Positions 5,701 through 40,738 of a DNA stretch of 64,000 nucleotides are shown in pieces. Source of the DNA: an uncultured Erysipelotrichaceae bacterium. GTDB lineage: Bacteria; Bacillota_I; Bacilli_A; Erysipelotrichales; Erysipelotrichaceae. The notes under the pieces were generated by a model. The model was not told the DNA's origin. It saw nothing but the letters and a program-made list of their open reading frames with translations, and did no database searches. Each line of letters starts with the position of its first letter. Positions within the stretch are counted from its first letter, which is position 1. A program made the position numbers and the translations under genes. The stretch is from positions 1 to 64,000 of the forward strand of contig CALVBC010000005.1 in NCBI GenBank assembly GCA_944325685.1, given 5' to 3'.

Positions 5701-6353
5701 ACTATATGCGCTTTAGCCAAAACGAGGACCGAAAGATGATCTTAGAAAAGGAGATCTTTCAAGTTGACAGTAAGGATATCGCGATCATCATCGCCACTAA
5801 CACCAAGATCAGCCTATCTTTCCGCCTAGATCAGATCTTTAAGAAGTATGTCTTAGAATATGAGAATAAAGAAGAGCTCATCTATGCCTTCAATAAAGCG
5901 CAAGCCGTCAGTGAGCCAAATGTCTATATGCGCCATGATGATCTTATCGGCTTTAAGCTATGCAAAGTACCAAATATCGATCAAAGACTCAAAAGGTCAA
6001 GTGATCTTATCGATCATCTACCGAAAAAGATCACCTCTGAAGATGGCCTTATCGGTTATGACATCAAAAGGCGCACTAAGGTCTATGCGCCAAAAGGCAA
6101 GATCTTATTTGTCGCTTATTATAAGGAACTACTAGATCGATTTAAAAAGGTCTATAAAGGTTATGGTGATCATTCATATCACGTTTTACAAGATGTCCCT
6201 AAGGATATCTATCATGATGCCATCTGTTGGATCGGGCCTAATATCGTGAGCCAATATCTCTTCATCCCTAAGATCAAAAGAGATCTCAAAGCTGATGAAG
6301 CTTATATCGAGATCGGAAATGAGGTGCATATCATCCGTTATGTCGATGCATAG
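2691..6353 (+). CDS. essC: EssC/YukB-like FtsK/SpoIIIE ATPase of a type VII secretion system
   Basis: This 1220-aa protein has the EssC order. Two N-terminal FHA-like beta domains (about 1-180) precede two membrane segments (about 216-240 and 247-270) and a degenerate ATPase-like region (GIGKIKLDLKI onward). One canonical FtsK/SpoIIIE ATPase follows, with Walker A GGATGSGKSE (GG at 599, Lys606), Walker B LFIVIDEFAEL (Asp720) and an ITQKP sensor. The last 400 residues look like a further ATPase fold without a P-loop (IIFIDDYMRF). EssC of Staphylococcus is near 1480 aa, so this one is short. EssC drives export of WXG100/LXG substrates. The gene overlaps both neighbours and sits directly before a YukD-like gene. 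No WXG100 substrate lies in the window. Symbol given by analogy. Confidence 0.8.
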   Translation: MKRLVSLYEGYQSDKILLEKDITWHGISFYLKDDRWYCLLDDDLTLADGRRAFALDDGRYEMVRKDRFFTIYLFVQRPSSFKAFQRCNFLLSDIIQADIVYDVINNYHIFLKGDHLYSDIDLIYLNGKRYQGQSLKDHDVIDFLGIRIIVTERVVLISDSYTSIKLSPFKEIYAPYKETYKLVAKKYHPKYELPKLRYKVKLKPLAQNTEAPFLVSFGQGLFMSLGMLVVAVINGYISYQNDRAMIEIVLMVMMPLLMAIGAILFPFIQRRYRQSSAHKRSIDQTKANQKALDDLKSQIEADIMTIREYHDHYRFDSDKYLSLLKDDDIYQRDKNDDDMLYIALGIGKIKLDLKIDTERDEDRSYLKDIYKAYKMIDGTFILDLKKIRYITFLVAKKKREDLFLYVLLQIVLLTSPRDLKIVISVDDDFIKRHPELKDIKHLWTNDHRLLFDHEAKDIDIDQRVVILSFYKGEEVIKENISYLYFSDDPIIPKRSDLIIRYQGDDIYVKDGEKEDHYHDLVFRYDPHIFYRLRLYHELDEEDQKSVITLDDIYPLDLDLDKSYSTKRKGIEVTLGLDQNGHRLSYDISQTGIGPHCLIGGATGSGKSELVLAMIMSLVLNYSASDLSLALIDFKGTGLKEALSYRGELLPHIDLALSNLDEVALDRSLAYFKLECKRREEAFQKLASITHTSIMDLKDYDRADPLRYGLSKIPYLFIVIDEFAELKASRQNFMQDIISIARIGRSLGIMMILITQKPAAVVDKEVWANTAYRIALKVNDVADSKELLNNDLAFKIKRPGEFYLLADKLSHGRCAYTRSLVDERNHEEVTIIDLKGKTLKTKEFIVQNEERQLSYFIKKIIDHHKERHIKLSSIYKKALKEESFMTLYKRYDVKLDLDKVLLGEDDDFNKMTQNALIHDLKIDPFVIFSYKTKEVKEAFYKLFCTSLALKADHYHFVMISDKKVDLGVYDGLIEKVHYEDGDDIAYIFAKIKKGIKKKAIIFIDDYMRFSQNEDRKMILEKEIFQVDSKDIAIIIATNTKISLSFRLDQIFKKYVLEYENKEELIYAFNKAQAVSEPNVYMRHDDLIGFKLCKVPNIDQRLKRSSDLIDHLPKKITSEDGLIGYDIKRRTKVYAPKGKILFVAYYKELLDRFKKVYKGYGDHSYHVLQDVPKDIYHDAICWIGPNIVSQYLFIPKIKRDLKADEAYIEIGNEVHIIRYVDA

Positions 6354-18136: not shown

Positions 18137-19375
18137 ATGAGTATCTATCAAAATAGACGCCAGCAATTAGCTAAAGGATTAAAGGAAGGAGAGAATATCT
18201 TTATCTTCTCAGGTAAAGCGATCATGTGCTCAGAAGATGAAGCTTATCCTTTCCATATCGACCGCAATTTCTATTATCTGACCGGCTTAGACCGCTCTGA
18301 TATGGTCTTAAACATCCGTAGGGTCAACGATAAGATCGTCTCAACGATCTTCATCGAACCATATGACGAACTGATGGCTAAATGGGTCGGTCCTAAATTG
18401 AAGGCTGATGAAGTAAAAGCGATCAGTGGCATCAATAATGTCCACTATATCGATGAAGTAAAAAGCTTTACCAATAGCCTTGTCACATATGCTAGAAGTA
18501 TTGGCAATACCACTGTATACCTTGACCTTTGGCGTCATGAACATGACCAAAACAAGTCAGAAGCGGAAAAGTTCGCTGCTTATCTAAAAGAGACTTATCC
18601 TGATATCACGATCGAAGATATCCGTCCTAATATCGCTTGTATGCGGATGATCAAAGATGAGGTGGAGATCGAACATATGCGCAAAGCCATCGCCACGACC
18701 AAATACGGCATCGAAGTGATGATGCGAGCGATGAGACCTGGTATCAGTGAGATGGTCATCGATAAGGCCTTTGACTTCGCTTTAGCTAGTCGTGATTGCG
18801 ACCTTGTCGCTTTTAAGACGATCGCTGCTGGTGGTAAAAGAGCGACGACGCTCCACTACAGTGACAACGATCAGATCTTAGAGGATGACACCTTATTCTT
18901 ATGTGATCTTGGTGCTACCGATGCTTATTATTGTGCTGATATATCACGTACCTTCCCGGTAAATGGTCATTTTACAGAAAGACAAAAAGAGATCTACGAT
19001 ATCGTCTTAAGCGTTCAAAGGCTCGTTGAAGAAAACGCTAGACCAGGTATCACACTAAGAGATCTTCAAAATATGGTCATCGATTATTACAAAGAAGAAC
19101 TACCAAAACACGGCTTAGATAAAGATGTCAGTGAATACTACTTCCATGGCATCGGTCATCACTTAGGTCTTGATACTCATGATATCAGTGATCCAAGTAA
19201 AAAAGTCCTTGAGCCAGGGATGGTCATCACTAATGAGCCAGGACTTTATATCGCTGATGAAGGTATCGGTATCAGGATCGAAGATGATCTTTTGATCACC
19301 GAGGAAGGTTGTGAGAACCTCGCCAAGGATATCTTACATACGACCGATGAGATCGAAGCTTTTATGAAGCGTTAG
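18137..19375 (+). CDS. pepP: Xaa-Pro aminopeptidase, M24B family
   Basis: A 412-aa enzyme with a creatinase-like N-terminal domain and a pita-bread catalytic domain. The metal ligands are visible: DLGATDA (Asp257), CADISRT (Asp268), GIGHHLGLDTHD, TNEPGLY (Glu367) and RIEDDLL (Glu382). It removes N-terminal residues ahead of Pro in the cytoplasm. TAAAGGAGG precedes the ATG. It follows thiI after 11 bp and its stop overlaps the convergent phosphoesterase gene by 14 bp. Confidence 0.92.
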   Translation: MSIYQNRRQQLAKGLKEGENIFIFSGKAIMCSEDEAYPFHIDRNFYYLTGLDRSDMVLNIRRVNDKIVSTIFIEPYDELMAKWVGPKLKADEVKAISGINNVHYIDEVKSFTNSLVTYARSIGNTTVYLDLWRHEHDQNKSEAEKFAAYLKETYPDITIEDIRPNIACMRMIKDEVEIEHMRKAIATTKYGIEVMMRAMRPGISEMVIDKAFDFALASRDCDLVAFKTIAAGGKRATTLHYSDNDQILEDDTLFLCDLGATDAYYCADISRTFPVNGHFTERQKEIYDIVLSVQRLVEENARPGITLRDLQNMVIDYYKEELPKHGLDKDVSEYYFHGIGHHLGLDTHDISDPSKKVLEPGMVITNEPGLYIADEGIGIRIEDDLLITEEGCENLAKDILHTTDEIEAFMKR

Positions 19376-20207
19376 CCAAACGATAGACGACGATCTCACT
19401 GTCGGCTAAAAAGCGAGCATCATATAGGGTCGTACCGACACCATTGGATACATCTAATAACATGTCATCCTTATGGTATTCACCCTTAAAGTACCTCTTA
19501 GCGCCATTTGGTCGATAGAGATTTTCAAGTAGGGGCAAATATACTTGTCCACCATGGGAGTGTCCTGCAAACATGATATCGGTATCACTGATATCATCAA
19601 AGACATCCGGTGTATGACATAAGCTTATAGTGAAGTTACTATCACTAGTACCGCTATAAGCTTTTTCTATATCTGGATCCCCTAAGATCAAAGACTCGAT
19701 ACCGACGATATCGATATAGCTACTGCCGATACGGATCTTGGTACTTCTATTATCTAAGATCTCAAAATCACTGGCATTTAAGATCGAAGTAGCTGTTTCT
19801 TTTATCGCACTAGATCCTAGATCGTGATTACCTAAGACAGCGTATTTACCGAAACGCGCTTTGATGTCTGTAAGTGACTGTGTAAAGGCTTCTTTTTCAT
19901 TTTGGGCAAATGTATAGCTATCACTATCATCGATGAGATCACCACCGAATAAGACGATATCGGGATCAAAGCTGTTGATGAGGTCGGTCAATTTGGTGAC
20001 CTCATTCTCCTTTATCGCTGTCCCGTAATGCAGATCGCTGAAAAAGACGACGGTCAGGCCATCAAGGTCATCATTTACCTTGTCACTTGTATAGGTCTTA
20101 GTAGTAACGGTTATCGTTTTGATGTTGATGTAGAAGACGTTGTATATAAGCAGGGCTAATGTCACGATAGTGATACTAGCGATAATAAACCATTTCTTGA
20201 ATTTCAT
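19362..20207 (-). CDS. Membrane-anchored metallophosphoesterase (YkuE-like)
   Basis: A 281-aa protein with an N-terminal membrane anchor (about 7-27) and a calcineurin-type phosphoesterase domain. The dimetal motifs are FFSDLHYG, FGGDLID, LGNHD, SLCHTPD and AGHSHGGQ. Family members act outside the membrane, several on lipid or UDP-linked substrates; the substrate here is not evident. The start has no Shine-Dalgarno but an extended -10 6 nt upstream. It overlaps pepP at the 3' ends. Confidence 0.87.
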   Translation of the reverse strand: MKFKKWFIIASITIVTLALLIYNVFYINIKTITVTTKTYTSDKVNDDLDGLTVVFFSDLHYGTAIKENEVTKLTDLINSFDPDIVLFGGDLIDDSDSYTFAQNEKEAFTQSLTDIKARFGKYAVLGNHDLGSSAIKETATSILNASDFEILDNRSTKIRIGSSYIDIVGIESLILGDPDIEKAYSGTSDSNFTISLCHTPDVFDDISDTDIMFAGHSHGGQVYLPLLENLYRPNGAKRYFKGEYHKDDMLLDVSNGVGTTLYDARFLADSEIVVYRLANAS

Positions 20208-20213
20208 AGGTCA

Positions 20214-20222
20214 ATTCTAACA
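20214..20222 (-). promoter_or_regulatory. Extended -10 promoter of the phosphoesterase gene, leaderless layout
   Basis: On the minus strand TGTTAGAAT ends 6 nt before the ATG at 20207. The intervening bases TGACCT hold no Shine-Dalgarno. Confidence 0.6.
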
Positions 20223-20235
20223 TAGATAAAGGATG

Positions 20236-20407
20236 TAAAAATCACATTATTTTACATAATTGAACGAAACTTCAAAGATACATCTTGATTATCATATAAG
20301 CGTAAGGTTGATATAGCCTTACTAGTACAAACCCCCTTAGTACGAATATTCTATCCCCCAAATTATATCAACGAAAATAGAGAGCTCCTTAAGTGGGGCT
20401 TTTCTTA
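20236..20407 (+). repeat. Intergenic element copy 1 (sRNA unit bracketing the ABC/peptide module)
   Basis: This about 170-bp stretch is a direct-orientation relative of 26326-26492. In both copies two TCACAT-like half sites lie 10 bp apart (20242 and 20252), the -10 TATCAT lies 48 bp after the first (20290), a GTAAGG...CCTTAC hairpin starts 12 bp after that (20302), then ATATTCTATCCCC, then a terminator. Identical spacing with diverged filler indicates conserved function. Confidence 0.7.
20297..20407 (+). ncRNA. Predicted C-rich small RNA, copy 1
   Basis: From the expected start after TATCAT, the RNA would be about 105-110 nt. It begins with the hairpin GTAAGG/CCTTAC, carries ACCCCCTT and TATCCCCC in single strands, and ends in AGCTCC...GGGGCT with T-rich sequence after it. 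There is no ATG in it. C-rich unpaired runs could pair with Shine-Dalgarno sites. Its 3' end overlaps the stop of the convergent regulator gene. Confidence 0.5.
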
Positions 20408-21644
20408 TGGGCTTTGTATAAAAGCGTGGTGATCTCTTTAGCTTTCTTTGTATCACCAAGCGTAGAATAAGCTTCATAAGCTATCTCTAGTAAGTTCACA
20501 TATTCATCATAGTTTTCATCTTTATCGATATTTAAGATCAGATCTTCGATCATCATGATGGCCATATCATCATAGCCATCCGTGATGATCCTTTTTAATA
20601 GAGCGATCATCTTTTTATCTATCAAACTGATATCAGAGCGTGTCTGTACGCGATCATACCATATACTAAAAGCTTCTTTATCTTGACGTTTAAAAAGGAC
20701 GGTCAAGATCATCACGATAGTACTAGGATATAAAGAAGCGATATCTTCATCTTTGAGATCATCGATCATATTTGATATCGCCTCTTCATCATCCATCCTC
20801 AGATGGCATAAGAAGATATTGTTTAAGGCACCATAATGCCGTTTTTCATCATCTAAAAAGTCATTAAAGATCGATATGGCTAGATCATATTGACGGATAT
20901 GCATAAAGACATTGCCTCGATTGAAGGTATTATCCTTTATCAGTTCTTCAAGGTGATATTTTTCAAAAATGCCGCTAGATAGATTGATGCATTTCATTGC
21001 GAGATCATATTGTCTTTTCTTTGTGAGAGGTAAAACGATACTCTTAAGGGCGATACCGTAAGCGATGGTCTTGTTTAAGCGTGGATAGAGATTGATCGCA
21101 TTGGCGTAGTGATAAAAACTCATATCGGCTTCTTTTTGGTCGTGATAATATAGACCTAAGTAATCATCTAAGATCTGACGATCCTTCTCACTTAAAAATA
21201 TGGCATCTTCTTTTTTTTTATCTCTTCGATATCACTATATGCATTAGATCTCTTATGGGTGACATCATCGATAAAGCTATATAGGCTTAAACGATAGTGA
21301 CACAAGGATGCCTTGATCTTATCTTTGATATCGAGTATCCTTTGCCATAATTTCATGTATTCAGGGTCTTCTTTGACCATCTTGATAAAATACGTATCAA
21401 ACATGGCATCGGTCTTTTTGATGAAAGAGTCATCGTAATTATATTCAGGATATAGCTGATCTAAGATATCGGTAAGGGTCTTGATAGCTACCTTGCTGGA
21501 GGCATTTTCGATAAGCGATACATAGGCATGCGATATATAAAGCAATTCTTCGACATCTCTTTGTGATAGGTCGTTTCTTTTGCGATATTTAGCTAATACA
21601 TCTGCGACATCATGTCTTAAGACATGTTCATAACACTTATCCAT
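20389..21644 (-). pseudogene. XRE-type regulator with TPR repeats (RRNPP-like), split by a frameshift in a poly-A run
   Basis: The N-terminal half (21644-21192) has an XRE helix-turn-helix (LSQRDVEELLYISHAYVSLIE). The frame ends shortly after nine A on the coding strand at about 21212-21220. Read with one added A it continues without a stop through IFLSEKDRQILDDYLGLYY into the helical-repeat protein coded to 20389, about 417 aa in all. HTH plus C-terminal TPR-like repeats is the layout of RRNPP regulators (Rgg, PlcR, AimR), which bind short signalling peptides. Whether the shift is real, phase-variable or a sequencing error cannot be told here. The start has an extended -10 6 nt upstream and no Shine-Dalgarno. 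Confidence 0.7.
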
Positions 21645-21650
21645 GCCTAT

Positions 21651-21659
21651 ATTTTAGCA
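21651..21659 (-). promoter_or_regulatory. Extended -10 promoter of the XRE-TPR regulator, leaderless layout
   Basis: TGCTAAAAT on the minus strand ends 6 nt before the ATG at 21644, the same arrangement as at rqcH, the phosphoesterase and glxK. Confidence 0.6.
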
Positions 21660-21781
21660 TATCCACCACTACTAAAATGGTTAATAAAGAAGGCTGAGAT
21701 AAATGCGTTGATCAACTAAATGATTTACCACTTTATGATAAATGATGATGTATATTATAGATGTAAATAAAGCGAGCCGTT

Positions 21782-21796
21782 CGTTATATTATAACG
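21782..21796. promoter_or_regulatory. Palindrome, candidate operator before the peptide gene
   Basis: CGTTATA-T-TATAACG is a perfect 7-1-7 palindrome 40 bp upstream of the small peptide ATG and in the divergent control region shared with the XRE-TPR regulator. It is a plausible binding site for that regulator. No function is shown. Confidence 0.4.
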
Positions 21797-21835
21797 AGAT
21801 ATATTCAAAAGATCCTTAGATAGAATGGAGGTTAT

Positions 21836-21925
21836 ATGTTGGGTAACTTACAACAAAGATATAAAAACGGTGACTTTGCGGTCATACCAATGAGTAAAGG
21901 CGACCTATTGGTTAATGAGATCTAA
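21836..21925 (+). CDS. 29-aa peptide, possible signalling or leader peptide
   Basis: A short ORF starting MLGNLQQRYKNG and ending KGDLLVNEI. A GGAGG site lies 5 bp before the ATG, which is better than chance. It has no hydrophobic signal segment, so it is unlike classical Sec-exported Phr/SHP pheromones. It lies directly after the palindrome at 21782 and 21 bp before the secreted-protein gene, and diverges from an RRNPP-like regulator. It may be the regulator's peptide ligand precursor, an ABC-exported peptide, or a translated leader. Confidence 0.45.
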   Translation: MLGNLQQRYKNGDFAVIPMSKGDLLVNEI

Positions 21926-21946
21926 GCTTTAAAAGGGAGATTATCG

Positions 21947-22303
21947 ATGAAAAGAGCATTTACCATACTCTGTATCTTAGCGATGACTATAGGTTGTATA
22001 GATATCAGAGCTGAAGAACATTGTGATCATAGTCATCATGTGGATGAGAACGCTCTCTTTGAAGACGAAATTGTCCTAAGAAGAGGACCGGCATGTATGT
22101 GTGGTGGTTTTATGGATTATCATAGTACTGTTACCGGTGTTGAATATTATGACGGTACACAAGACTGCATCCATATGCCAGTAGGTTTAGATGAGATCTA
22201 TAAAACAAAGATTACTAAGATCTATAAATGTTCCACTTGTCAAAGGACAAAAGAGTATGTAAGCTACAAAATAAGGACTGTTTGTAAGGGATCGTACTTA
22301 TAA
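21947..22303 (+). CDS. Small secreted Cys/His-rich protein, function unknown
   Basis: A 118-aa protein with a Sec-type signal peptide (KRAFTILCILAMTIGCIDIRAEE; cut probably after RAE). The mature part begins with HCDHSHHVDEN and carries CMCGG, DCIHMP and CSTCQR, about seven Cys in paired positions that could form disulfides or bind a metal. AAGGGAG precedes the ATG. It sits between the 29-aa peptide and two ABC transporter genes, so it could be a bacteriocin-like export substrate or an immunity/sensor protein. No family recognised. Confidence 0.6.
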   Translation: MKRAFTILCILAMTIGCIDIRAEEHCDHSHHVDENALFEDEIVLRRGPACMCGGFMDYHSTVTGVEYYDGTQDCIHMPVGLDEIYKTKITKIYKCSTCQRTKEYVSYKIRTVCKGSYL

Positions 22304-22308
22304 AGGTA

Positions 22309-22351
22309 AATAGTCTTGCCAGACCGATCATATCGATCTGGCAAGACTATT
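22309..22351 (+). repeat. Very strong 20-bp stem-loop between the secreted protein and the ABC genes
   Basis: AATAGTCTTGCCAGACCGAT pairs with ATCGATCTGGCAAGACTATT with one mismatch and a CAT loop. No T run follows on either strand, so it is not a standard terminator. It could protect the upstream mRNA or limit read-through to the ABC genes. Confidence 0.7.
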
Positions 22352-22374
22352 GAAATAATAAGGGGTAACGTAAT

Positions 22375-24660
22375 ATGTTAAAGATCAAGCACTTATGTAA
22401 GACCTATCATAATAAAAGCGGTGATGTCACCGCGCTTTTGGATATTGACCTAACGATCGATAATACCGGTCTATATGTGATCCTTGGTCCAAGTGGCAGT
22501 GGTAAGAGCACCTTGATGCAGATCATCGCTGGTGTTGATAAAGACTATAGTGGTGATATCGATTGCAAAGATAAGGTCATATATATGAAACAGGACATCC
22601 ATCTTTTTGATGATATGCCTCTTATTGATAATATAAAACTTATCACCGATGATAAAAAGATCATCGACCCTTTATTAAAACACTTTGACTTAGATAAGCA
22701 CATTAAGAAGAAAGTAAAGAAGTTATCTAACGGGCAAAAGAAAAGACTAGAACTCCTTATTTGTGTCTTATTGAAGCCAGATATCTTACTTTTAGATGAG
22801 CCTACTAGTGCTTTAGACCGTGATAATGCCAATAAGATCATGAGATTATTAGATGGCTTATCCAATGTCATGACGATCATCATGGTCACTCATGATATCG
22901 CCTTAGCTTATGACCATGCTTATAAGGTCATTGAGATCGAAGATGGCAAGATCGAAAAGATCATCGCTATGAATGATAGTGATAATAAACGTATCACCCA
23001 TCAGAGAAAAGGAAAACGAAAACTAAAAGATCACTTTGGTTTAGCCTTAAAAGAGCTCTATTCACGTCTACCATATCAGCTAGGGTATATGGTCCTTTTG
23101 ATGGTAGTTTCTTTCTTTTTGATCATACTTATCAATATCTTTTTATCGATAAATAGTGAACGTGATTATACAGAAGTGTTTAAAAATGGTGAGAATATCA
23201 TCGAGTCATTGCCTGATAATAAGGTCATGAATGATCGAGATTCCGAGCTTGGCTTTGATGATATTTACGGTTCTTATGCAGAAAGAGTAGCTAGTGGGAT
23301 ATCTTATCATTTTAAAGATTACGATAAGATCAAAGCCACTGACATCAAAAGAAGTATCCAAGATGATCCTAATATCCTAGCGGTCAACGCTTTCTATGAT
23401 CCACTATATCGTGATGATGATCAGATCATCGATGAGATCACGACTTATTATGAATCTAGTGAAGATAAAGCTTTTTATCCTTTGACACATTACGACAACG
23501 ATATCGTCAAGATACCAGAATATAAAAGCACGGAATACAATAAGATCTATCATGAATTATTCATAACCGATATCGATAAATATATCGAAGTGATCAAAAG
23601 TGGTGTATTAAAGGCAGATAGTGGTATCGACCTTGAAAGGGATGCTCGACAAAATGAAGTGCATATCTTTACTTTAGTCAATACTGATGAAGATCTACCG
23701 ATCATAATGGGGACATTACCACAAACTAGTGATGAACTATTGATCGATGATAATTTTGCCCAGATACTCATGAAGGTTTATGGTATCGATAATAGGAAAG
23801 AACTAGTTGGCAAAGAGATCGATGTTTCATCCTTTAGTGGTTTTTCTAAAGTGAAGGAATTGAGCTTTGTCTTCTCGATGCCAAATGATACTGATATCGA
23901 TATCATGACCTATATCGAAGAAAACGAAGCAGAAGGTCGTGATATGAGTGCCATGCGCAATTATCTTACAAATGCCCAAGCATCGCTTGATAGTGGTAAC
24001 TATGACTACAATGACTTTTTGCCTTTTGAGTCTTTCCAATACAAGATCGTCGGTATATCATCCATAGAAAATGACGATATGGCGATGGGTTTTTGCGGTG
24101 GTGAGTTATTTGAAGGAGAACTGTGGGACTACTATATCATGGATAAAGAAGATCTTGAATTTGAATATGCCGAATATATCCTTAAGCCAAATACAGACTA
24201 CGATGCAAGTTTGACCAAGCTCAAAAATGATCTGACCTTAACAGGAAACGATCTGTATTTTCAAAATGAGATCATCGATGACATCGTATATGCTTATGAA
24301 GATATAACTTCACTCATCCCTTATCTTTTGGCGATATTGGTCATCTCTTTATTTGTGCTTATCATCTATCGGATATCCGATATCAAAAGGATCAAAAAAG
24401 AAAATTTCATCTTTAAGCGTGCTGATTATTGCCGCTATAAAGAAGTGATCATCAGGATCTCTATTATCGGCATCATCGTCATCGCTTTGATCTTAGTGAT
24501 AAGCTATCCACTATTTGATCTGATCAATGAAGTTGCAAGTGGATATAACTATATGGACTTAATAGTATATTCACCATCCTTGATCGTTATAATGACCTTA
24601 TCAGTCATCGTCTTTGCGATGGTCTTAGAATTAGTGCTCACAAAGGTAAAGGCATCATGA
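22375..24660 (+). CDS. ABC transporter, ATPase fused to FtsX-like permease
   Basis: A 761-aa fusion. Residues 1-205 are an ABC ATPase (Walker A GPSGSGKST, signature LSNGQ instead of LSGGQ, Walker B ILLLDEPTSALD, H-loop MVTHD). A membrane helix near 238-260, a large extracytoplasmic domain (about 265-640) and three C-terminal helices follow, as in MacB/FtsX permeases. This layout occurs in transporters associated with bacteriocin export or immunity. It is the first of two such genes; the stop overlaps the next start. AAGGGGT serves as ribosome site. Codon use includes more ATA and TTA than core genes. Confidence 0.8.
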   Translation: MLKIKHLCKTYHNKSGDVTALLDIDLTIDNTGLYVILGPSGSGKSTLMQIIAGVDKDYSGDIDCKDKVIYMKQDIHLFDDMPLIDNIKLITDDKKIIDPLLKHFDLDKHIKKKVKKLSNGQKKRLELLICVLLKPDILLLDEPTSALDRDNANKIMRLLDGLSNVMTIIMVTHDIALAYDHAYKVIEIEDGKIEKIIAMNDSDNKRITHQRKGKRKLKDHFGLALKELYSRLPYQLGYMVLLMVVSFFLIILINIFLSINSERDYTEVFKNGENIIESLPDNKVMNDRDSELGFDDIYGSYAERVASGISYHFKDYDKIKATDIKRSIQDDPNILAVNAFYDPLYRDDDQIIDEITTYYESSEDKAFYPLTHYDNDIVKIPEYKSTEYNKIYHELFITDIDKYIEVIKSGVLKADSGIDLERDARQNEVHIFTLVNTDEDLPIIMGTLPQTSDELLIDDNFAQILMKVYGIDNRKELVGKEIDVSSFSGFSKVKELSFVFSMPNDTDIDIMTYIEENEAEGRDMSAMRNYLTNAQASLDSGNYDYNDFLPFESFQYKIVGISSIENDDMAMGFCGGELFEGELWDYYIMDKEDLEFEYAEYILKPNTDYDASLTKLKNDLTLTGNDLYFQNEIIDDIVYAYEDITSLIPYLLAILVISLFVLIIYRISDIKRIKKENFIFKRADYCRYKEVIIRISIIGIIVIALILVISYPLFDLINEVASGYNYMDLIVYSPSLIVIMTLSVIVFAMVLELVLTKVKAS

Positions 24661-26330
24661 TCGAAGTTAGAGGTTTGAAAAAGGCTTTTGGTGATCTAGT
24701 GGTCTTTGATGATCTAGAGCTAAAGATCGATCATCCTGGCATTTATGTGATAAGTGGACCTTCAGGTTGTGGTAAGAGCACACTACTACAGGTCTTGGCA
24801 GGCAGAGAAGCTTGTAATGCTGAATCGATCGATATAAAAGGTAAGATCGGCCTTATCTTGCAGAACTACGATATGATCGATGAAATAAAGGTCATAGATA
24901 ATATCTATCTAAAAAGATCTAAAGATCCTTATACAGAGATGCTTATCGATAAACTCGGTATCAGGTCACTATGTGATCGTTATCCTAAGGAATTATCTGG
25001 TGGTCAAAGACAAAGGGTCGGCATCATCAGGACCCTCAGCTTTGGTCCCGATATCATCATGTGTGATGAACCGACCGAATCACTTGACATCCATAATAAA
25101 GAGATCGTCATGGACTTGTTTAAAAAGCTGTCACGATCAAAGATCATCATCTTAGTATCACACGATCAAGATCTATATGAGCGCTATGCCGATACGATAT
25201 ATCTTTTTGAAGATAATAAATTAGTCATGATCAAAGATGAAAAAGGTGATCTTGACATCAAATATGAAAGACCACGCTCACTTAAAGGCAAAGAGATCAA
25301 GGCTTTGATAAAGGAAGTCTTCTTTAAGCGCAAGTTGCTCTTTTTGACATCGATCGCCATCTTGATCATCCTTATCATCGGTGCTTTTTATATCGACCAG
25401 CACTTATTTACGATGGGTGATAGTGACCTCAGGAATAAAGATATGTACTATATCGTAACTACCAACACGGATATCATCGAAGACAATAACCTTAAACTTG
25501 TGATACCATTTGAAGCTCTTAAATATCAAGGACAAGACTATGCCGCTAATATCTATCCAAGCCTTGAAGCGCTCCCTGAGCTAAGTGTCATCATCAATAA
25601 AAACCTAGCTGATAGTTTGAATATCCATATCGATGATGAGATCGAATTGGTCTATGATGTCTTTGGTAATGAAAGATCTGTAAAGGTCAAGGTATCAGAT
25701 ATCATCGAAGAAAAAGGGACTAATATCCGATCGGTATATTATGACCTCGATAAGATGATGACCTATTTCAGTAAAGAAAAGGTATCAGATACGCTATCGA
25801 TGAGTGACTATTTTGATATGTTTTCTAATACCTATCAATATCATTATGACTATGAAGGTTATGATGATCTATATTATCGTTTAAGTGATATCGATGAAGA
25901 TATCAAGATCTTAAATCCTCTACATGATGAAAGGGTGAAGATAGCGGAAGATAGTCAGGTATATAGGATGGTCTTTATCTTAGCCATCGGCTTTTTGATC
26001 ATCTTGGCTACGATCTTTATCATCGTCTTTATAAGATCAAATGATCGTCGCTTCAAATATGTCTTAGCGGTCATATCTACATTTGGTGCTGACTTTGATA
26101 AGGCTAAGTCAGGATATCGAAATTATATCTTAGCACAAGCATTATGGCTCATCTTGATCATGGCATCTATCACGGTGATGAGTTATATCGTCATGCATTA
26201 TGATCTTATATATGTACTAATAATGGTCATCATCATGATCGTATGGTTGATCATATATTTGATCATAGTCATCTATTTAGATAAAGACCTTAAGATAAGC
26301 GATCTCAATACGATCTTAAAAGATAGTTAA
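24657..26330 (+). CDS. ABC transporter, ATPase fused to FtsX-like permease (second, smaller)
   Basis: A 557-aa fusion of the same design. The ATPase has GPSGCGKST, LSGGQRQR and IIMCDEPTESLD, with Glu replacing the usual Ala in the D-loop TSALD. One helix near 226-245, a smaller extracytoplasmic domain (about 250-430) and three C-terminal helices follow. It overlaps the previous gene by 4 bp, so the two likely form one heteromeric transporter. The stop lies just inside the second repeat element, whose terminator ends this operon. Confidence 0.8.
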   Translation: MIEVRGLKKAFGDLVVFDDLELKIDHPGIYVISGPSGCGKSTLLQVLAGREACNAESIDIKGKIGLILQNYDMIDEIKVIDNIYLKRSKDPYTEMLIDKLGIRSLCDRYPKELSGGQRQRVGIIRTLSFGPDIIMCDEPTESLDIHNKEIVMDLFKKLSRSKIIILVSHDQDLYERYADTIYLFEDNKLVMIKDEKGDLDIKYERPRSLKGKEIKALIKEVFFKRKLLFLTSIAILIILIIGAFYIDQHLFTMGDSDLRNKDMYYIVTTNTDIIEDNNLKLVIPFEALKYQGQDYAANIYPSLEALPELSVIINKNLADSLNIHIDDEIELVYDVFGNERSVKVKVSDIIEEKGTNIRSVYYDLDKMMTYFSKEKVSDTLSMSDYFDMFSNTYQYHYDYEGYDDLYYRLSDIDEDIKILNPLHDERVKIAEDSQVYRMVFILAIGFLIILATIFIIVFIRSNDRRFKYVLAVISTFGADFDKAKSGYRNYILAQALWLILIMASITVMSYIVMHYDLIYVLIMVIIMIVWLIIYLIIVIYLDKDLKISDLNTILKDS

Positions 26331-26492
26331 AATCACATCACTTCACATAATTCCATCATCACTATCACAAACATCCTTTGTATCATATAAGCGTAAGGTA
26401 AATACCTTACATAGACAACGTCACATATTCTATCCCCTTAAAACTATATTACTTAAAACTCTCGGCTCCTAAGATAATGGGAGCCATTTTTT
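26326..26492 (+). repeat. Intergenic element copy 2 (sRNA unit bracketing the ABC/peptide module)
   Basis: Direct repeat of 20236-20407. TCACAT half sites lie at 26333 and 26343 (10 bp apart), TATCAT at 26381 (48 bp from the first), GTAAGG/CCTTAC at 26393-26410, ATATTCTATCCCC at 26425-26437, and a terminator at 26464-26492. Confidence 0.7.
26388..26492 (+). ncRNA. Predicted C-rich small RNA, copy 2
   Basis: Expected length about 105 nt, with hairpin GTAAGGTA/TACCTTAC, the shared TTCTATCCCC run and a terminator GGCTCC...GGGAGCC followed by ATTTTTT. No ATG is present. The stem bases are kept against copy 1 while the loop differs in length and sequence, which supports an RNA role. The terminator also ends the ABC operon upstream and touches the stop of the convergent methyltransferase gene. 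Confidence 0.5.
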
Positions 26493-27012
26493 ATTTGGTC
26501 AGGATATAGACGACCGGTTCAAAGGGGTCTTTGTATTCTTGGTAGTGCTCTAAGATCTTATATGGTGAATCCTTGATATATCTTAAAACCTTATAGTATT
26601 CGTCATAACCACCATCATGACCACGATAAAAGATGAGCGATACTAAAGCCTTATCGTTTAAATGCTTATATAGTGCATCTAATGCTTTGATCGTCGTATC
26701 GGCTTTGGTGATGATACTACTTGTACTATTAGGTAGATAGCCAAGATTGAACATCACCACATCGATCTTATCGGTGATATAGTGATCAAGCTCAGAATGG
26801 GAATCATTTATAAAGGTGATATTGTGATAGTCATGTAGTTTGCTTTGAGCTTTTAAGATCGCTTCTTTTTGGATATCAAAGCTATAGACCTTCATGATAT
26901 GGTCAGCTAAAAAGCGGGTATCATTACCACCACCACAGGTCATATCGATACCGATCATCTTTGCATTTAAGATCGGTCTTATGTATTTTTGGCTAAAGGT
27001 CACTGGCTTCAT
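26491..27012 (-). CDS. mnmM: YtqB/MnmM-type tRNA methyltransferase
   Basis: A 173-aa Rossmann methyltransferase with SAM motif IDMTCGGGNDT and catalytic-loop NLGYLPN. Family members (Bacillus YtqB) are known to methylate the aminomethyl group of wobble U34 to give mnm5U in tRNA. The gene overlaps the radical SAM gene upstream by 20 bp, the same pairing as ytqA-ytqB in Bacillus, which supports the assignment. Length is normal. Confidence 0.82.
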   Translation of the reverse strand: MKPVTFSQKYIRPILNAKMIGIDMTCGGGNDTRFLADHIMKVYSFDIQKEAILKAQSKLHDYHNITFINDSHSELDHYITDKIDVVMFNLGYLPNSTSSIITKADTTIKALDALYKHLNDKALVSLIFYRGHDGGYDEYYKVLRYIKDSPYKILEHYQEYKDPFEPVVYILTK

Positions 27013-36429: not shown

Positions 36430-37236
36430 ATGGCTGAATGTAATCACGATTGCAGTTCTTGTAATAAAGAATGTGGGGAAAGGGTCGAAAAAGGACCACT
36501 ACCTTCAACGAATATCAAAAAGATCATCGGGGTCTTAAGTGGCAAAGGTGGCGTTGGTAAGTCGATGGTCACTTCGCTATTAGCGGTCTCTTTAGCTAAA
36601 AGTGGCTTAAAGGTCGGTATCATGGACGCTGATGTGACCGGTCCTAGTATCCCGAAGATGTTTGGTATCACCGGTGATACCATAGGTGATGGCGTTGGTA
36701 TCTATCCAAGTTTAACGGAAAAATATCAGATCAAAGTCGCTAGTATCAATACGATGCTAGAAAGCGAAGAGACACCAGTCATCTGGAAAGGTCCGCTTTT
36801 AAGCAGTATGGTCAAACAGTTCTATACCGATGTTTATTGGGAAGAATTAGATGTCTTACTCATCGATATGCCTCCTGGCACATCGGATATCGCCCTAACG
36901 GTCTTGCAAGACCTTCCGATCGATGGTCTTGTCATGGTCACTGGGGCAGGTAAGCTCATCTCGATGGTCGTCGCTAAGGCGATCAATATGGCTAATATGA
37001 CCCATACTAAGGTACTAGGTCTTGTCGAGAATATGGCTTATGTCAAATGCCCAGATTGTGGTAAGAAGATCATGATCTATAAGGATGATGTCGCTGATGA
37101 TGTCGCTAAGCGTCATGACTTAGGATTATTAGGACGTCTACCATTAGATCCAGAGCTTGCTGATCTTGCCGATAACGGGAAGATCGAAGAGTATGATGGT
37201 GATGACCTAGAAAAGGTCAAGGAAGTGATCTTATAA
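36430..37236 (+). CDS. Mrp/NBP35-type P-loop ATPase, Fe-S cluster carrier
   Basis: A 268-aa protein with an N-terminal Cys cluster (CNHDCSSCNKECGE), deviant Walker A GKGGVGKS, DADVTGPSIP, DMPPGTSD and a C-terminal CPDCGKK pair that bridges a cluster in the dimer. ApbC/Mrp proteins carry 4Fe-4S clusters to apo-proteins in the cytosol. The stop overlaps the response regulator start by 1 bp, which may be coincidence rather than shared function. Confidence 0.92.
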   Translation: MAECNHDCSSCNKECGERVEKGPLPSTNIKKIIGVLSGKGGVGKSMVTSLLAVSLAKSGLKVGIMDADVTGPSIPKMFGITGDTIGDGVGIYPSLTEKYQIKVASINTMLESEETPVIWKGPLLSSMVKQFYTDVYWEELDVLLIDMPPGTSDIALTVLQDLPIDGLVMVTGAGKLISMVVAKAINMANMTHTKVLGLVENMAYVKCPDCGKKIMIYKDDVADDVAKRHDLGLLGRLPLDPELADLADNGKIEEYDGDDLEKVKEVIL

Positions 37237-37916
37237 TGGCACTAAAGATATTAGTCGCTGATGATGAAGAGAAGATCCGTAAGCTCGTCAGAAAATATGC
37301 CGAGCGTGAAGGATATGAGGTCATCGAAGCGGAAAATGGTAAAGAAGCATATGAACTAGCCATCAAAGAAGATGTCGATCTATGCATCTTAGATGTCATG
37401 ATGCCGATCATGGATGGTTTTGAAGCCTATCAGAAGATCAGAACTGAAAAGGACATCCCTTGTATCTTCTTAACGGCTTTGAATGAAGAATACAACCGCA
37501 TCTATGGCTTTGATGTCGGCGCTGATGACTATGTCGCTAAGCCTTTTTCGACCAATGAACTGATGAAACGGGTCGGGGTCATCTTCAAGCGGATGAATAA
37601 AGAGACCATCACAAATAACAGTATCACCAAGATCGAAGGCCTTGTGATCGATGAAGATGCAAGGACCGTCACGATCGATGGTACACAAGAGACCCTTTCA
37701 TTAAAGGAGTATGAGTTATTGTTGTATCTTGTTAAAAACAGAGGCACCGCTGTTACAAGAGAAACACTATTAGAAAAGATCTGGGGTTATGGTTATTTCA
37801 AAGATGACCGGACCTTAGATACGCATATCAAACTATTACGTAAGACCTTAGGGCCTTATGCCAAATATATCACCACGATCAGAGGAGTAGGTTATCGCTT
37901 TGAAAAAAACGCGTAG
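37236..37916 (+). CDS. OmpR/PhoB-family response regulator
   Basis: A 226-aa regulator. The receiver has acidic residues Asp10-Glu11, phospho-acceptor Asp53 (CILDVMMP), the Thr in FLTALNE and Lys in AKPFS. The C-terminal winged helix has DDRTLDTHIKLLRKTLG and TIRGVGYRF. It is paired with the histidine kinase downstream (17-bp overlap). The regulon is not evident. Confidence 0.93.
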   Translation: MALKILVADDEEKIRKLVRKYAEREGYEVIEAENGKEAYELAIKEDVDLCILDVMMPIMDGFEAYQKIRTEKDIPCIFLTALNEEYNRIYGFDVGADDYVAKPFSTNELMKRVGVIFKRMNKETITNNSITKIEGLVIDEDARTVTIDGTQETLSLKEYELLLYLVKNRGTAVTRETLLEKIWGYGYFKDDRTLDTHIKLLRKTLGPYAKYITTIRGVGYRFEKNA

Positions 37917-39910: not shown

Positions 39911-40738
39911 ATGAAGTATTTTTTCAAAGGTATCTTATGTGGGATCGGTGGTGTCATACCAGGGCTTTCCGGTAGTGTACTACTTGTCATCTTCGGTCTT
40001 TATGAAAAGACGATCAAAGCGATCGGGACCATCTTTAAAGACTTCAAAAACAACATCTTATTCTTGATCCCCTTGTTCTGTGGTTTTGGGCTTGGTATCA
40101 TCGGTTTTTCCAAGGTCATCGATGCCGCTTTAGAAAGCTATGAAGTGATCACGAGGTTCATTTTCTTTGGCCTTATATTAGGGACTTTACCGGCCTTCTA
40201 TAAAGAGGTCAGAAAGTATGGTTATCAGAATAAGTATTATCTATTCACCATCTTAGCGATCATCGTCGGTATCCTTGTGTTTTACTTAAATGGTGGTATC
40301 TTCCACTTTGAAGGAACAGGTATCATCACGTCATTTGTCATCGGGTGTGTCGTCGCTTTAGCCAGCATCGTACCAGGACTTGATAGTGCTTCAACTCTAT
40401 CAGCACTTGGCTTATATGAGGTCTATGTCAAAGCCCTAGCGGACTTTGATATCGCCGCTTTGATCCCGATGGCTTTAGGGCTTGCTTCTTTTGCCCTCAT
40501 CTTGTCTTATTTTATGCATAAGCTATTAGATAAGCACTATACCGCGACTTTTAGCTTTATCTTTGGTCTATTCTTATGCATGGCACCAAAGGTCATAAGT
40601 CCCGCATTAAGCGCTATAAGCCTAGATATCAGCCTACTTGGCTATATATTATGCATCGTCATCGGCTTTATCATCTCTTATCTATTCAGTCATATCGAAG
40701 ACTTTATCGATAAAGGCAAAAAAGTACATAATAGTTAA
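39911..40738 (+). CDS. popT: DUF368 protein, polyprenyl-phosphate transporter PopT
   Basis: A 275-aa membrane protein with two inverted halves, each with the family motif (GGVIPGLSGS near 13-22; IVPGLDSAS in the middle) in re-entrant loops. DUF368 proteins (PopT) flip undecaprenyl phosphate back to the cytosolic face for cell-wall carrier recycling. CTAAGGAAA lies upstream as a ribosome site. It stands alone between the peptidase-like gene and rubrerythrin. Confidence 0.87.
   Translation: MKYFFKGILCGIGGVIPGLSGSVLLVIFGLYEKTIKAIGTIFKDFKNNILFLIPLFCGFGLGIIGFSKVIDAALESYEVITRFIFFGLILGTLPAFYKEVRKYGYQNKYYLFTILAIIVGILVFYLNGGIFHFEGTGIITSFVIGCVVALASIVPGLDSASTLSALGLYEVYVKALADFDIAALIPMALGLASFALILSYFMHKLLDKHYTATFSFIFGLFLCMAPKVISPALSAISLDISLLGYILCIVIGFIISYLFSHIEDFIDKGKKVHNS

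Follow-up and report, generated by a model that had tools for sequence, protein, structure and literature searches.

Two sibling units in an Erysipelotrichaceae genome probably encode C-rich small RNAs of an order-wide family under two-component control

Two units of common plan and the genes around them

In a 64,000-nucleotide stretch of DNA from an uncultured Erysipelotrichaceae bacterium (GCA_944325685.1, contig CALVBC010000005.1, positions 1 to 64,000; hereafter the window), two units at 20242-20406 and 26333-26492 share a common plan of a direct-repeat box, a -10 hexamer, a 5' hairpin, a C-rich stretch and a terminator (Table 1). A preliminary description of this DNA had placed two such units here, and both are present, with the spacings it gave of 10 bp from repeat to repeat, 48 bp from the start of the box to the -10 and 12 bp from the -10 to the hairpin being the same in both. 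Its claim that the spacing of 5' hairpin and C-run also matches does not hold, as the two lie 42 nt apart in unit 1 and 30 nt apart in unit 2. Unit 2 has only a weak second hairpin, and the folding z-scores of the two units are -1.3 and -4.3.

Table 1. Positions of the parts of both units and of their flanking genes in the window.
Feature	Position	Strand	Remarks
Unit 1 activator box	20242..20257	+	direct repeats TCACAT (20242-20247) and TTACAT (20252-20257), 10 bp apart
Unit 1 third CATAATT-type repeat	about -37	+	degenerate in unit 1
Unit 1 -10 hexamer TATCAT	20290..20295	+	29 bp past the 19-bp box; no -35 consensus
Unit 1 putative sRNA, about 105 nt	20302..20406	+	inferred start, 7 nt after the -10
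Unit 1 5' hairpin GTAAGG...CCTTAC	20302..20322	+	compensated variation across the family
Unit 1 second hairpin GTAC..GTAC	20325..20343	+	CCCCC in the loop
Unit 1 single-stranded C-rich stretch ATATTCTATCCCCC	20346..20359	+	putative seed
Unit 1 intrinsic terminator, AGCTCC-loop-GGGGCT and T-run	20383..20406	+	
Unit 2 activator box	26333..26348	+	TCACAT (26333-26338) and TCACAT (26343-26348)
Unit 2 -10 hexamer TATCAT	26381..26386	+	
Unit 2 putative sRNA, about 100 nt	26393..26492	+	
Unit 2 5' hairpin GTAAGGT-AAAT-ACCTTAC	26393..26410	+	
Unit 2 C-rich stretch ATATTCTATCCCCTT	26425..26439	+	putative seed
Unit 2 intrinsic terminator GGCTCC..GGGAGCC and T6	26464..26492	+	
Metallophosphoesterase gene	19362..20207	-	conserved next to the first copy in the genus; divergent from unit 1; context only
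Putative rRNA methylase gene	26491..27012	-	conserved next to the second copy in the genus; convergent with unit 2; context only

The 24-bp box pattern AAAATCACATNANTTNACATAATT has exactly two matches in the window (shuffle mean 0.00), and the 19-bp string across the -10 and the hairpin, TATCATATAAGCGTAAGGT, has two exact matches in the whole of the window's own genome (G000, 1.36 Mb) with none for the reversed control. When unit 1 was used as a query, unit 2 was recovered in the genome with E=1.7e-5. A third genome match of unit 1, on contig C25, is a 16-mer matching by chance ahead of a permease gene, and the box lookalikes of the same genome (1-3 mismatches) lie within genes or next to them and lack the -10, hairpin and terminator.

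Between the units lie XRE and TPR-like genes, a small ORF, a gene for a Cys-rich secreted protein and two ABC genes. The preliminary description had the units bracketing a peptide/ABC module; the module does sit between them, but the link is not conserved. The two copies adjoin between the metallophosphoesterase and rRNA methylase genes in four sister genomes (G007, G003, G005 and G001) and beside the metallophosphoesterase gene at a contig end in a fifth (G008), while in G006 one small gene separates them; the Cys-rich and ABC genes are missing between the sRNA copies in sister genomes. Since the copies are adjacent in five sister genomes, the bracketing in the window would stem from a later insertion or, less likely, from repeated loss. 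It is in our view extremely improbable that the sRNA genes belong functionally to the intervening module, for example as the output of RRNPP quorum sensing: the XRE and TPR-like pair with its divergent small ORF is physically close, but the five sister genomes with adjoining copies have no module between them, XRE/TPR homologues are absent from every other fetched locus, and 29 genera share the box and the RNA.

The XRE helix-turn-helix ORF (21192-21644, minus strand) and the TPR-like ORF (20389-21123, minus strand) lie in different frames with a nine-A run near their junction, and they look like one RRNPP-type regulator that is either frameshifted or misassembled. Divergent from the XRE gene, at 21781-21926 on the plus strand, a palindrome (TCGTTATATTATAACGA) is followed by a 29-codon ORF (MLGNLQQRYKNGDFAVIPMSKGDLLVNEI), a possible operator and signalling-peptide gene. 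The region 21947-26330 (plus strand) encodes the secreted Cys-rich protein of 118 aa and two ABC ATPase-permease proteins, which weakly resemble lactococcin-972-type export ABC proteins (TIGR03608, below cut-off). On the other side of unit 1, the metallophosphoesterase gene has an apparently conserved extended -10 (TATGNTAGAAT; 20207-20261, minus strand) right before its ATG, which suggests a leaderless mRNA, and this promoter abuts the sRNA box of unit 1.

Promoter signature, RNA structure and spread of the family

The preliminary description had staked its reading on there being further copies in related genomes and conserved stems among them, and both were found. All nine genomes of the genus match the unit 2 query, with 19 copies read in total, mostly as tandem pairs, and the gap from box to -10 is 29 bp in 16/16 of the genus copies first read. 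The family-wide promoter pattern is present in 30/196 genomes (control 0) and the order-wide pattern in 146/316 genomes, 29/80 genera and both families, with a reversed-pattern control of 0. The logo of 34 non-redundant promoters has TCACAT at -60, TYACAT at -50, a third CATAATT-type repeat near -37 and TANNAT at -12, with no -35.

To see the box apart from the RNA, a box-only search was run on 26 genomes with the three-repeat box as the query, without any -10 or RNA sequence. Each of its 35 non-redundant sites has TANNNT at exactly +48 (35/35, as against 10 for the next-best offset), and each is followed by a terminator-like hairpin and T-run (35/35 vs 11.5 when shuffled). Few box sites resemble protein promoters, namely the site at L243 and the promoters of the response regulator (RR) discussed below. 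At L243 (G009:C21), position 1594, the same box stands upstream of an apparent secreted-protein gene, perhaps a rare protein-coding target of that RR.

About half of the order's genomes have no match at this stringency, and nearly all of those tested do have the RR, which would mean that the box drifts or that not every genome has the sRNA. Scanning named genomes for the exact pattern, which serves naming and not range, gave 8 loci; the named carriers are Erysipelotrichaceae and Anaeroplasmataceae MAGs, some of them from sources such as goat rumen. In a literature search with most subscription papers outside it, we found no earlier report of this sRNA family. Judged by sequence, the units belong to a large family of putative sRNAs that had not been catalogued before.

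Stems were scored directly, unit by unit. Of 89 non-redundant units, 73% form a 5' stem of 6 bp or more, as compared to 7% of partial shuffles, and this stem is built from 56 different complementary arm pairs, e.g., GTAAGG/CCTTAC, ACAAGGA/TCCTTGT, ATCAAAG/CTTTGAT and CAGCAAGTA/TACTTGCTG. This range of arm pairs argues that the 5' stem is maintained by compensatory change while its own sequence varies. Second stems of 6 bp or more are likewise enriched (46% vs 10%), and their loops often contain CCCC. C-rich motifs number 1.63 per RNA on average vs 0.25; the RNAs read end in terminators, and most carry a pyrimidine-rich motif such as TATCCCCTT, CCTTTCCTT, CTCTTCTC or CTCTCCC. The version of the single-stranded C-rich stretch typical of the genus is TTCTATCCCCTT. 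In the first copies of G002 and G004 (L248, position 2858; L060, position about 4836), the 5' stem is a different one (ACAAGG or GCAAGG) and the motif is CTTATCCCCCTT, differences that point to sibling divergence within the genus.

A promoter followed by hairpins and a terminator would also suit an attenuator, and Anaeroplasmataceae-like genomes have the RNA ahead of the RR gene, as a leader would be. The units could accordingly be read as riboswitch-like 5' leaders or attenuators of adjoining genes instead of free sRNAs. In the window, however, both downstream genes are convergent with the units; family-wide, the next gene is on the same strand in 40 cases and on the opposite strand in 42, with 52 homology clusters among these 82 genes. 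Such strand-balanced, unrelated next genes are expected of free-standing sRNAs rather than of leaders. No Rfam family, whether of riboswitches or of known sRNAs, reaches its gathering score. We regard the leader reading as very unlikely and treat the units as putative free-standing sRNA genes.

The glmM-linked response regulator

Three OmpR-type RRs are common to all seven genomes compared (six genera), and the one linked to glmM is likely, judging from synteny and from apparent autoregulation outside the genus, to be the activator of the sRNAs. In G206 the box stands directly upstream of the glmM-linked RR gene, on an Anaeroplasmataceae contig (L286) the orthologous RR gene comes right after a box-driven sRNA, and a class search returned further genomes of family f21 and two of f12 in which this RR follows the box. 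In the sister family, 13/19 glmM-linked RR genes vs 1/30 other ORFs have a TYACAY-N4-THACA box no more than 150 nt away. One genome, G063 (genus g56; 2.3 Mb, 99% complete), lacks this RR, with zero candidates returned by an OmpR-type RR query, and its genus has no box matches.

In the window's own genome the RR gene lies outside the window, at C17:52968-53606, where it adjoins glmM and a HisKA kinase gene (RR and kinase genes together spanning about 51.6-53.6 kb); this RR gene overlaps glmM and has no detectable box of its own. The two other conserved OmpR-type RRs, one linked to dnaE and one to purA/mrp (window 37236-37916), showed no box-gene link in the loci read.

A competing regulator is PhoB/PhoP, in which case the RNAs would be phosphate-starvation sRNAs. 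The promoters, in which tandem ACAT-type repeats precede a -10 and there is no -35, resemble Pho-box promoters, tandem repeats of 10-11 bp and a metallophosphoesterase gene close by count as Pho features, and the genome has pst-phoU-phoB-phoR. Against this, most pst promoters of the same genomes have TTTAACA-type repeats with an 11-bp period and not TCACAT-N4-TYACAT, the fetched pst regions contain no sRNA-type box save one upstream of a different gene, and the RR gene that the box does precede is a different one, linked to glmM. Further, two genomes (G026 and G160) carry the sRNA without any PhoB-group RR. We rejected PhoB control, which we consider quite improbable, on the pst promoter repeats and the missing PhoB-group RR in these two carriers. 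Next to a pst operon, at L130 (G064:C24), position 6285, a box-like site (PWM 24.4) was seen upstream of a putative L-lactate permease gene.

Predicted targets, known C-rich sRNAs and a proposed mechanism

Target prediction against GGGAGG sites had been proposed in the preliminary description. In a set of 445 genes drawn from the window and from a 400-kb sample of the genome (about 29% of it), the unit 2 seed pairs at below -12 kcal/mol with 63/445 translation starts vs 9 internal coding windows. Shuffled seeds likewise favour starts (34 +/- 22 vs 63 for the unit 2 seed), so that the excess is modest and the specificity of Shine-Dalgarno pairing is only suggestive. The best site for both units, AAAGGGGATAGAT / TTAAAGGGGATAGAT-ATG, precedes the gene of a DUF975/CmpB-type membrane protein, the start of which (L346 180-214; G000:C29 about 40180-40214) has nearly perfect complementarity to both sRNA seeds. 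AAGGGGATAGA also stands before a 64%-identical DUF975/CmpB orthologue in another genus (G055), and the complementarity is not fully kept in G006 or G007. A solute-binding lipoprotein gene is a candidate further target; both genes are leads.

The redundant C-rich/pyrimidine motif could serve as a protein-binding site, and target complementarity is weakly conserved, which would fit RNAs that bind a protein or the ribosomal anti-Shine-Dalgarno sequence instead of pairing with mRNAs. This is unlikely in our estimation, given that translation starts pair more strongly than gene interiors and that LhrC, RNAIII, RsaE, SprD and FsrA are reported to pair through C-rich loops and single strands (PMC4132741). 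Pairing with mRNAs remains our preferred reading.

The closest working analogues are the csRNAs (PMC3091779, PMC8186281) and LhrC (PMC4132741). Like the CiaRH-controlled csRNAs of streptococci, the family here appears to have several short sibling sRNAs per genome, each with a strong promoter carrying a direct-repeat RR box, a terminator and an unpaired region complementary to Shine-Dalgarno sequences (PMC3091779). From sequence, the units have the csRNA layout of an intergenic position, an apparently activated promoter followed by a terminator, a length within 51-202 nt and a predicted unpaired Shine-Dalgarno-complementary region. The box differs, being TCACAT-N4-TYACAT-N5-CATAATT (period 10 then 11, from -60) where the CiaR box is TTTAAG-N5-TTTAAG, and the regulator, by synteny probably the glmM-linked RR, may differ too. 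Matches to NTTAAG-N5-WTTAAG in the window are at chance level, with none in either unit's promoter in the right orientation. CiaR acts on 15 promoters, five of them of sRNAs, whereas the box here seems to control almost only sRNAs. The csRNA-like reading of the preliminary description is thus well supported by comparison for its layout of short, C-rich, terminated RNAs with a putative two-component-activated promoter, and it fails for the CiaR box.

LhrC1-5 of Listeria (LisRK) are likewise multicopy, and they are two-component-dependent, with redundant CU-rich UCCC motifs in hairpin loops and single strands (PMC4132741); the family here, too, has several copies and repeats its UCCC motifs in loops and unpaired stretches. 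The LhrC regulatory element lies upstream of -53, its critical positions being -55 and -57 to -59 (PMC4132741); by these published positions it is strikingly similar to the box at -60 to -45 here, although the same paper gives no LisR box consensus. For similarity to LhrC, no Rfam family was found at gathering score, and Rfam may hold no LhrC model. The sequence comparison suggests a family of multicopy, C-rich, two-component-controlled sRNAs with its own box and regulator. RsaE/RoxS, FsrA and other C-rich Firmicute sRNAs have other regulators, and we found no homology between them and the family here. Their likeness to it lies in UCCC/CCCC motifs directed against Shine-Dalgarno sequences (PMC4132741).

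The two units are, with good though not full confidence, sibling genes for trans-acting sRNAs of about 100-105 nt that belong to an order-wide family, are activated by an RR and pair with Shine-Dalgarno regions. In the mechanism that we propose, the glmM-linked RR and its histidine kinase would respond to a cell-envelope-type signal, a suggestion that comes from the glmM context and analogy only. The phosphorylated RR would bind the direct repeats and activate the sRNA genes, the UCCCC motifs of the sRNAs would pair with the Shine-Dalgarno regions of target mRNAs and repress their translation, and the two sibling copies may give additive or differentiated output. A broader possibility, which we put forward tentatively, is a conserved two-component system with almost entirely noncoding output, in which the box, across the order and beyond, drives its own RR gene and 2-4 C-rich sRNAs per genome and the sensor acts mainly via RNA pairing.

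Two-component-controlled C-rich sRNAs are known from a few pathogens, and to our knowledge post-transcriptional control is nearly unstudied in gut and rumen bacteria of the Erysipelotrichaceae type. The family would add another circuit of this kind, with a predicted DNA box, regulator and seeds that are testable in culturable relatives, and its promoter signature appears specific enough for annotating hundreds of sRNA genes from sequence alone. It also offers a natural series of duplicated, diverging siblings in which to study how sRNAs multiply and change their seeds. If the broader possibility is true, the two-component system would be one dedicated to RNA, its sensor influencing the cell chiefly through the pairing of these small RNAs.
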